IMG/VR virus record: IMGVR_UViG_3300025671_000497
Span: 1-24,714 of that record
Strand: one strand, 5' to 3'
Length of the DNA: 24,714 nucleotides
Source: a virus
In this document: positions 3,222 through 24,714 of the stretch, piece by piece
Layout: every line of letters starts with the position of its first letter
How positions within the stretch are numbered: the first letter of the stretch is position 1
The notes under the pieces: model-generated
Databases searched by the model: none
What the model saw: only the letters and a program-made list of their open reading frames with translations
What the model was told of the DNA's origin: nothing
Program-made: the position numbers and the translations under genes

Positions 3222-3224
3222 ACT
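3216..3224 (+). promoter_or_regulatory. Possible extended -10 over the terL stop codon
   Basis: TGG-TAGACT overlaps the TAG stop of terL. It lies 15 bases before the GTG and 21 before the ATG of the sigma-like gene. The hexamer matches TATAAT at four of six and there is no clear -35. Confidence 0.22.
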
Positions 3225-22757: not shown

Positions 22758-22939
22758 TGACACTTCCCACTTCCCGCTCTACCCGTAACCAAGAGCACGC
22801 CCTGAGCCTTGCATACGCCCTTAGAAGCGTGATCAGCAGTTACGGTAAAGTCTTCGACAAGGAACAGTACCGAGCCCTTAAAGAAGCACGAGAAGCCCTG
22901 TTGGAATTCCAAAAGGACAACTCATTCTTTGATGCCTGA
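22757..22939 (+). CDS. 60-residue protein, unknown function
   Basis: An AAGGAGA site at proper spacing favours ATG 22757 (TGATG overlap) over ATG 22751. The product is helical (ALSLAYALRSVISSYGKVF; YRALKEAREALLEFQK). The stop shares a base with the next start (TGATG). Unrecognised. Confidence 0.55.
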   Translation: MTLPTSRSTRNQEHALSLAYALRSVISSYGKVFDKEQYRALKEAREALLEFQKDNSFFDA

Positions 22940-23454
22940 TGTTCAAAGCCTTTTTTGCCCTGGCCGCTGCTTCTTTACTGGCGGCCTCTCCTGCTTTTGC
23001 CTTAACTGAGGCAGATGCAATCGCCCACAACAAACTAGCGGAGGCTCTTACCGACCGTGGAATCAAGCTCTATACCGATGCAGCAGACTGCAAGGGTGGT
23101 GGCCTTGCTGGCTTCTATCACAGCCCGAGCAGGTCCCTGGTCATTTGTAACAAAGGCTCTGCCAAGATGACTGCAGCAAACCTGAATACATTGCGGCATG
23201 AAACTATCCACATCATTCAGGACTGCAAGGTAGGTGGCCTGGGTGATCAACGCCTAGGAAGCGTCTATAACCCCACTGCAATTAAGAACCTGGCCAAGTC
23301 TCATAACTTGGACTTGCCGGCCATTGCTGCAGCCTACAGTGCTCGTGGTGCAAATGCTCAAGTGATCAGCCTTGAGTATGAAGCTTGGACTGCTTCTGTC
23401 GCATACAATGCTGATCAGATCAGAACTAAGCTTGAACAGACATGCCGCCTGTAA
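22939..23454 (+). CDS. Secreted protein with HExxH zinc-peptidase motif
   Basis: A 171-residue protein. Residues 1-21 are a signal peptide (MFKAFFALAAASLLAASPAFA with an AFA cleavage site). The mature part holds HETIH (H87, E88, H91), the HExxH zinc motif, preceded by LNTL and followed by IQDC. E146 or E148 (SLEYEAW) could be the third ligand. Three cysteines (C51, C70, C96) might form disulfides after export. The domain order is gluzincin-like, but the family is unnamed. It would act in the periplasm, on a host envelope protein or on virion maturation. The next gene overlaps as TAATG. Confidence 0.6.
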   Translation: MFKAFFALAAASLLAASPAFALTEADAIAHNKLAEALTDRGIKLYTDAADCKGGGLAGFYHSPSRSLVICNKGSAKMTAANLNTLRHETIHIIQDCKVGGLGDQRLGSVYNPTAIKNLAKSHNLDLPAIAAAYSARGANAQVISLEYEAWTASVAYNADQIRTKLEQTCRL

Positions 23455-24011: not shown

Positions 24012-24051
24012 AATCTTTTTTTGTCAAGCTGAATCTTTTTTTGTCAGGCTG
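24012..24051. repeat. Tandem 20-bp repeat with T7 tracts
   Basis: Two adjacent 20-base units differ at one base (AATCTTTTTTTGTCAAGCTG and the same with GTCAGG). On the opposite strand each holds a TGACA followed by seven A residues; one is a full TTGACA. Both units lie just before the likely terminator. Confidence 0.75.
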
Positions 24052-24076
24052 TCCTCTTCGGCGGCCTCTTTTTTTT
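24046..24076 (+). terminator. Probable terminator after the late small-gene cluster
   Basis: AGGCTG (24046-24051) pairs with CGGCCT (24062-24067), with one T-G pair, and is followed by a run of eight T residues. It lies 74 bases after the last stop. The 10-base loop makes it moderate in strength. Confidence 0.5.
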
Positions 24077-24146
24077 GCTTTTTTTCTACCACCAAAAAGC
24101 CTTAACTGTCATGCTAAATGTTCAACAGAATACATAAAAGTGACCA

Positions 24147-24166
24147 CTGACGGGGTACCCCCTCAG
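24147..24166. promoter_or_regulatory. 20-bp near-perfect palindrome centred on GGGGTACCCC
   Basis: CTGA-C-GGGGTACCCC-C-TCAG is a dyad with a single C/C mismatch in each arm. It is the first copy of the repeated element that follows. Dyads of this kind are typical of dimeric protein binding sites. Confidence 0.6.
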
Positions 24167-24253
24167 GTAGTACTACTTTACGGGGTACCCCCTGAGTGGA
24201 CACTTTAGTACCCCCTGAGTGGACACCTAGGTACCCACTGAGTTCCTACTTTT
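24155..24253. repeat. Iteron-like array of 23-bp direct repeats
   Basis: Four copies begin with GTACCCC or GTACCCA at 24155, 24185, 24208 and 24231. The last three are exactly 23 bases apart with no spacer, and begin GTACCCCCTGAGTGGACA or a close variant. The first is 30 bases from the second. Copies 1 and 2 are extended leftwards into the palindrome GGGGTACCCC. Copy 4 is the most degenerate. It resembles plasmid and phage replication iterons or a repressor operator array. Confidence 0.7.
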
Positions 24254-24308
24254 GAAAGCATATACTATATATACTCTAAATACACTTCTTAATACAGTTA
24301 ATACAGCT
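24254..24308. other. AT-rich tract next to the iteron array
   Basis: An AT-rich stretch (including CATATACTATATATACTC) ends with two tandem copies of TTAATACAG (24289-24306). It could be a DNA unwinding element beside the iterons, or alternatively carry -10-like promoter boxes. Confidence 0.5.
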
Positions 24309-24369
24309 TGTGCGTGTGTAAGGGATGAACTACTGGTTATGCGCCTACACGCATAGAAGGCTAACCTGA

Positions 24370-24714
24370 GTGATCTTCGCCAGGAATTGCGGCTGGATGC
24401 CCGTCACTTATAAGTACTGCCTGGTGGCTGGTATTTCGGAAATCGTAGTGGTGGTGTTGCGGGGGATAGCCGACCCCGGATCGCTTTCTCCGCTATCTGT
24501 ACGCCCCTACAAGGCCGCTCCGCCCCCTTTTAGGTATACCGACATGGTCAGGGGGTTTAGAGGCCCCTTACAGGCGATTCTGGAGGGGCACCACATCCGT
24601 ATAGGGGTAGTAAATCTGTACTATAGGGGGTTATTTCCAGAAGCCGCCGCCGAAAAAGCCGTCCATGACAGTGATCTGGGCCAAAAATCGCCGATGGTAA
24701 AAGCGCGCGTGACA
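24370..24714 (+). CDS. Open frame running off the right edge, doubtful
   Basis: From GTG 24370 the frame stays open for 115 codons to the window edge. A weak AAGG lies about 10 bases upstream. The translation looks poor (proline runs, many rare-looking codons such as CGG, AGG and ATA), unlike the genes elsewhere. It overlaps hairpins and the candidate - strand end. It may be chance. Confidence 0.15.
   Translation, partial: MIFARNCGWMPVTYKYCLVAGISEIVVVVLRGIADPGSLSPLSVRPYKAAPPPFRYTDMVRGFRGPLQAILEGHHIRIGVVNLYYRGLFPEAAAEKAVHDSDLGQKSPMVKARVT
24631..24714 (-). CDS. Possible C-terminus of a minus-strand gene at the window edge
   Basis: On the - strand an open frame enters from the right edge and stops with TAA at 24631-24633. 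Its last residues are MDGFFGGGFWK, a glycine- and aromatic-rich ending of the kind seen in phage structural proteins. If real, a convergent gene cluster lies to the right and the non-coding region is between two clusters. Only 27 codons are visible, so this is weak. Confidence 0.25.
   Translation of the reverse strand, partial: CHARFYHRRFLAQITVMDGFFGGGFWK

Follow-up and report, generated by a model that had tools for sequence, protein, structure and literature searches.

At the right end of a 24,714-base viral DNA fragment (IMG/VR record IMGVR_UViG_3300025671_000497, hereafter the window), an array of iterons lies beside an AT-rich tract within a gene-free gap. We consider it likely that array and tract form a replication origin of the lambda or iteron kind, served by an initiator that acts in trans and has a second copy of the arrangement at its own gene. 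What we computed is the anatomy of the site, its synteny, the presence of a phage-private motif at both places, the turning points of GC skew, and the modularity of the initiator domains; from these we infer binding, unwinding, firing and autoregulation. A first-pass annotation of the window had proposed an origin made of iterons and an AT-rich element, and its central idea is supported by synteny, by the skew turn, and by a motif that recurs only at the initiator gene, while its guess at the binding protein is not.

By its terminase and sigma-factor genes the window is closest to the Synechococcus phages S-CBS2, S-CRES3 and S-CRES1/2, with a terminase 90% identical to that of S-CBS2. As judged by these genes, it is a fragment of a cyanosiphovirus akin to S-CBS2 and S-CRES1-3, a phage type with genomes of 71-74 kb.

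Anatomy of the array and the AT-rich tract

The proposed origin consists of the following elements, in coordinates of the window:

24137..24253, no strand: iteron array of five related, partly palindromic sites of about 19 bp (repeat analysis, shuffles)
24140..24158, minus strand: iteron site 1, inverted, reading GTGACCACTGACGGGGTAC on the plus strand; 84% complementary to 24208-24226
24155..24173, plus strand: iteron site 2, degenerate, GTACCCCCTCAGGTAGTAC, sharing a GTAC overlap with site 1 (sequence, repeat family)
24185..24203, plus strand: iteron site 3, GTACCCCCTGAGTGGACAC (repeat analysis)
24208..24226, plus strand: iteron site 4, GTACCCCCTGAGTGGACAC (repeat analysis)
24231..24249, plus strand: iteron site 5, GTACCCACTGAGTTCCTAC, degenerate, adjoining the AT-rich tract (repeat analysis)
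24243..24306, no strand: AT-rich tract, the proposed DNA-unwinding element (lowest stability, raw GC-skew minimum)

The exact 23-base direct repeats described in the first-pass annotation are present at 24185-24207, 24208-24230 (87%) and 24231-24253 (74%), with a Tandem Repeats Finder score of 90; in 300 dinucleotide-shuffled versions of the window, the period-23 self-match of 35/46 was never reached, the mean being 25.6 and the highest value 29. The 20-bp dyad (CTGACGGGGTACCCCCTCAG, 24147-24166) and the tandem repeat in the AT-rich tract (TTAATACAG, 24289-24306, plus strand) are likewise as described. The repeats, with the motif GTACCCMCTGAGTGGACAC, are thus real, but the array is wider than was noted: because an inverted and a degenerate copy come before the three direct ones, there are five related sites, spanning 24140-24249 and spaced by 15, 30, 23 and 23 bases. 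As judged by calculated nearest-neighbour stability, no other stretch of 50 or of 60 bp in the entire window is as unstable as the AT-rich tract. The tract lies directly beside the iterons, as in origins of the lambda type, and the period (23 bp here, 21-24 bp in the relatives) agrees with the dyad spacing of about 18-24 bp that characterizes that type.

Conservation of structure, not of sequence

The syntenic gap holds a 21-24-bp repeat array and an AT-rich tract in S-CRES1, in S-CRES3 and in each of ten IMG/VR relatives (G002-G006, G008, G009, L109, L111 and L112). In S-CRES3, the array follows orthologues of the same neighbour genes and comprises four 22-24-base units with the dyad TACCCAACCGTTGGGTA, succeeded by the AT-rich tract; in S-CRES1, the tract is preceded by a 21-base unit, based on TGTCCA/TGGACA and repeated about seven times, and the arrays of G008, G009, L109, L111 and L112 have a period of about 22. 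Judging from these comparisons, the array structure is conserved between relatives and the repeat sequence is private to each phage. Absence of the repeats from close relatives had been named in the first-pass annotation as grounds for giving up the origin; the repeat sequence is indeed absent from them, but the same structure is present with another sequence. Since the motif differs between phages, a similarity search with the whole region against phage and plasmid DNA gave no match. A universal motif, TRYCCA-N5/6-TGGRYA, was suggested by the first four phages and was rejected when other relatives proved to have unrelated sequences.

A second copy at the initiator gene

In the complete genomes, the private motif occurs again upstream of a gene annotated as a "DNA replication protein" (S-CRES phages) or as hypothetical (gp057 of S-CBS2), which adjoins a gene for a DnaB-like helicase and which we refer to as the initiator gene. 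Ten records were scanned without a preset motif, using only 9-mers in common with the array at that gene (the initiator-side array). In seven of them exactly one other region stood out, located 23-28 kb from the initiator-side array at the place corresponding to that in the window (the window-type array); the remaining three are S-CBS2 and the fragments G001 and G007, which we suspect end before that place. Window-type and initiator-side arrays of the same phage have 19-87 8-mers in common, against a mean of 1.3 otherwise, and for the seven records the true pairing is the best among 5,040. A weight matrix run over all 71 kb of S-CRES3 found strong sites at the two arrays only (3+4), with nothing elsewhere near in score; the initiator-side array of this phage lies at 3.3 kb. 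In S-CRES3 and G006, moreover, the least stable stretch of the record is an AT-rich tract of this kind, both tracts ranking 1 and 2.

Every IMG/VR initiator gene inspected has its own repeat array upstream, and in several phages the array abuts a -10-like sequence ahead of the initiator start (e.g. GATATACTGG). Compared with ten initiator-side arrays, the window array has most 8-mers in common with that of S-CBS2 (10). The window-type array of G004 (29285-29392) is mixed, with two sites resembling its own initiator-side array and three of a GGTGTCC type, as if caught changing.

The cyanophage PSS2 (NC_013021), a distant, integrase-bearing relative with a 107-kb genome, also has two arrays. Array 1, with a period of 22-23 bases, lies inside gp107 (93538-94455), annotated as hypothetical and probably the replication initiator, and is followed by an AT-rich tract. 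Array 2 (24,835-24,924) is found about 38 kb away in an intergenic gap; it carries the motif of array 1 beside a similar tract, is the best match to array 1 in the genome (18 8-mers versus 5 for the next), and adjoins the least stable DNA of the 107 kb. An array inside the initiator gene is the position known from lambda (PMC7466680), which connects the arrangement with the lambda type, and the presence of both copies in PSS2 suggests that the two-copy arrangement is old.

Turning points of GC skew

Cumulative GC skew had been proposed as a check on the origin, and in S-CRES1, S-CRES3 and the IMG/VR relatives named below its turning points lie no farther than about 1.6 kb from the window-type arrays. 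In the window itself, the minimum of the raw curve is at 24,295, inside the AT-rich tract, with only about 420 bases to its right. The S-CRES3 skew turns at 29,774-29,842, about 10 bp from the tract (array and tract, 29,690-29,831); in G004 (29,424) and G009 (10,433 of L193), the detrended curve turns in or beside the tract; and in G002, G003, G005, G006, G008, L111 and S-CRES1, the turn is 0.7-1.6 kb from the window-type array. Most genes on either side are oriented alike, and the turn is therefore not accounted for by gene orientation.

The initiator protein

Twenty-two initiators have a common C-terminal part and a variable N-terminal part. Family matches of the N-terminus are to a DnaD-like helicase loader at 1e-10 and to O-like initiators at values down to 1.4e-4; its score for HTH_36 also exceeds the cutoff. 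Its structural model, a confident one (predicted local distance difference test score, 86), contains a winged helix, and its fold neighbours in the PDB include the N-terminal domains 4pql and 4pta ("MDR initiator"), with weak E values of 0.05-0.3 and a probability of 0.92-1.0. In the relatives, an O/DnaD-like winged-helix initiator is thus encoded by the phage itself, as in lambda-type systems. No RepA_N appears among the family matches listed for the 22 proteins, no Rep_3 of the iteron-plasmid type among their listed Pfam or PHROG matches, and the initiators gave no match to RctB.

S-CBS2 and L102 are instructive in this respect: the C-terminal domains of their initiators are 86% identical and the N-terminal domains 14%, and their arrays are unrelated, as if domain and array had been exchanged together. 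Site and initiator appear, therefore, to change as a pair. The annotated start of S-CRES3 gp3 (OQ587941; L090; 2181-3107, minus strand) looks too short; frame and homology continue to an ATG that adjoins the array near 3224, and a start there restores the N-terminal winged-helix part.

The first-pass annotation found no initiator in the window, which is true of the fragment and not of the phage type: the window lacks one because it is a 24.7-kb piece of a larger genome. The suggestion made in its place, that the repeats are bound by a new protein from among the small basic and AP2-like ones of the window, was dropped, as these proteins have no family match and no reason to covary with the array. 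The likely binder is instead a winged-helix initiator resembling lambda O and DnaD, encoded outside the fragment.

Proposed mechanism and alternatives

We propose that the initiator (gp3 in S-CRES1 and S-CRES3, gp057 in S-CBS2), encoded about 23-28 kb away and outside the window fragment, would bind the dyad sites and, once bound, open the adjacent AT-rich tract. It would then recruit the DnaB-like helicase and primase of the phage together with the polymerase of the host, and replication would proceed bidirectionally; the complete genomes of the relatives have no annotated DNA polymerase, so that the host enzyme is probably used. The copy of array and tract directly upstream of the initiator gene would probably serve autoregulation and possibly act as a second origin, and both copies would change in concert with the N-terminal domain of the initiator.

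Four other explanations were considered. The strongest, which we nevertheless regard as unlikely, is that the window-type array is a control site that titrates or handcuffs the initiator, in the manner of the control iterons of iteron plasmids (incA of P1, incC of F), and that replication really starts from the initiator-side copy. The motif common to both places, the array inside the PSS2 initiator gene and the occurrence of the initiator-side copy alone in S-CBS2 are compatible with this, as are the array inside the lambda initiator gene (PMC7466680) and the initiator-binding repeats documented at negative control sites of iteron replicons (PMC6090056). A control locus needs no unwinding tract, however, and of the seven records with two arrays, six (G005 being the exception) have the less stable AT-rich tract at the window-type copy; furthermore, the skew turns at the window-type array rather than at the initiator gene.

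We find it improbable that the array is an operator through which a transcriptional regulator, either the initiator or another dimer, governs promoters in the AT-rich tract. The sites are dyads, the -10-like sequence beside the initiator-side array makes such a role plausible for that copy, and one promoter-like match (10/12) spans the S-CRES3 tract. On the other hand, promoter-like matches at the window-type array are no more frequent than in shuffles, S-CRES3 has no annotated plus-strand gene for about 3 kb past the array, and neither a skew turning point nor the genome's minimum of DNA stability is predicted by an operator.

Dyads clustered in non-coding DNA would also fit a parS-like partition site or a pac-like packaging site, but either is very improbable: the relatives have no annotated partition genes, the motif recurs at the initiator gene and not at terS or a par gene, and private sequences would be unexpected for a pac site among phages whose terminases are 80-90% identical. 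Just as improbable is a cruciform or single-strand hairpin element, for although the two 35-nt halves of 24137-24206 form an inverted repeat (83% complementary) that may fold as a very stable 70-nt hairpin (-40 kcal/mol, z -5.5), such a hairpin follows from dyad sites in both orientations, and the analysis of the S-CRES3 array reported no long inverted repeat in it.

Several observations weigh against the window-type array being an origin with a linked copy at the initiator gene. First, GC skew is an indirect sign of where replication starts, several of the values come from fragments, and detrending is sensitive to the ends; G004 and G005 turn at the array in the detrended curve only, and G006 in the raw curve only. 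The PSS2 skew turns at 10-12 kb, 13 kb from the nearest array, and that of S-CBS2 at about 5.6 kb, though a scan of its complete genome found the initiator-side array and no second one. Second, the fragment does not include the initiator of its own phage, and exact motif scans of IMG/VR did not find the window motif at an initiator gene; their 39 matches are single sites, which we read as chance. Finally, array similarity and N-domain identity are weakly correlated over all pairs (0.19; partial 0.18), because nearly all arrays are unrelated once the domains differ, which makes single domain-swap pairs more telling.

The S-CBS2 turning point (NC_015463, about 5.4-6.0 kb) is without any array of that phage's motif, which raises the question of whether a second origin was lost, replaced or mis-assembled.

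Flanking features

The window carries genes for a terminase, sigma factor, primase, exonuclease, ribonucleotide reductase, dCTP deaminase and portal. Three features flank the proposed origin:

22939..23454, plus strand: neighbouring gene of 171 aa (phrog_16003), marking the equivalent place in S-CRES3, S-CRES1, G002, G003 and G006
24046..24077, plus strand: intrinsic-terminator-like hairpin and T run (8-pair stem, T tail), ending the upstream gene block before the array
24307..24714, no strand: non-coding stretch right of the AT-rich tract, ended by the contig end (open reading frame without family match, no Rfam match)

The hairpin at 24046..24077 folds as RNA with -12.1 kcal/mol (z -3.2), has a counterpart at the equivalent place in S-CRES3, and would keep transcription from entering the origin. 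Directly ahead of it, AATCTTTTTTTGTCAAGCTG occurs in two tandem copies (24012-24051). That the region has no genes, as first annotated, agrees with our analysis: the open reading frames 24041-24208 and 24370-24714 are mechanical calls, the latter without a family match. At the place matching 24307..24714, S-CRES1 and S-CRES3 have several hundred gene-free, poorly conserved bases. A conserved RNA or second element to the right of the array was sought by aligning the downstream stretches; no block was common to all, and Rfam and tRNA searches gave no match, so no RNA is claimed. In the gene-free stretch right of the window-type arrays, the short words AGTACAAATACCTA and GTACAAATGTACTA are repeated in several of G002-G006, S-CRES1 and S-CRES3 (e.g. 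L185, L177), and are possibly promoters for a phage sigma factor or another binding site.

Relation to known replicons

Two separate cis sites with common initiator-binding repeats, as seen here, are found in the satellite phage P4 (ori1 and crr), which differs in that its alpha protein is primase, helicase and initiator in one and that the sites are about 4.5 kb apart. Origins of lambda and of lambdoid and Shiga toxin (Stx) phages have 4-6 iterons beside an AT-rich tract and are bound by a phage initiator (PMC7466680). The proposed cyanosiphovirus origin resembles them in its iterons and tract; the initiator here has a winged-helix N-terminus and a separate C-terminal part, and no phage DNA polymerase is annotated. 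Unlike lambda, whose single origin lies in gene O, these phages have an intergenic window-type copy 23-28 kb from the initiator gene (array 1 of PSS2 being the exception in its position) and a second copy upstream of that gene, they encode the helicase themselves, and almost every phage of the clade has an iteron sequence of its own.

Iteron plasmids, and chromids such as Vibrio cholerae chromosome 2 with its RctB initiator and control iterons (PMC6090056), likewise have initiator-binding repeats at the origin, the initiator promoter and control sites, but with other initiator families and outside a phage context; here, both copies are accompanied by an AT-rich tract. The semi-palindromic iterons are also reminiscent of the RepA_N replicon of the PLE satellites of V. 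cholerae (PMC7145576), for which covariation of an initiator domain with the origin is already known (PMC8263062). In contrast to PLE, with two specificity groups and one origin, this one phage clade shows about 20 types of array, with two linked copies to a genome, and no RepA_N sequence match was detected. The working parts are therefore of a known kind: lambda-type iterons, an unwinding tract and a modular initiator. New, as far as we found in a literature of which our coverage is incomplete, are the intergenic position of the proposed origin, displaced from the initiator gene, a second copy linked to it and the phage-private repeat that matches at both places; no published replication origin of a marine cyanosiphovirus was found in the literature.

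More tentatively, it is quite possible that each genome carries two origin modules marked by a phage-private repeat "barcode" that switches as one unit with the initiator N-domain. The barcodes would then be replication-specificity (incompatibility) types, driven to diversify by co-infecting phages, decoys or satellites, and the clade would amount to a natural collection of about 20 initiators matched with their iterons. The rapid turnover of the repeats suggests selection on replicon specificity, perhaps imposed by decoy origins or origin-targeting nucleases; ectopic lambda origins arrest lambda growth (PMC4488673), and nucleases that target origins have been described (PMC8263062).

For marine cyanosiphoviruses, these results provide a testable origin, initiator and opening tract. 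The many matched initiator domains and repeats within a single clade would let the sequence code of O-type initiators be read from nature. The two far-apart copies, alike within a genome while their sequence differs between phages, raise the question of how, and why, they evolve in concert.
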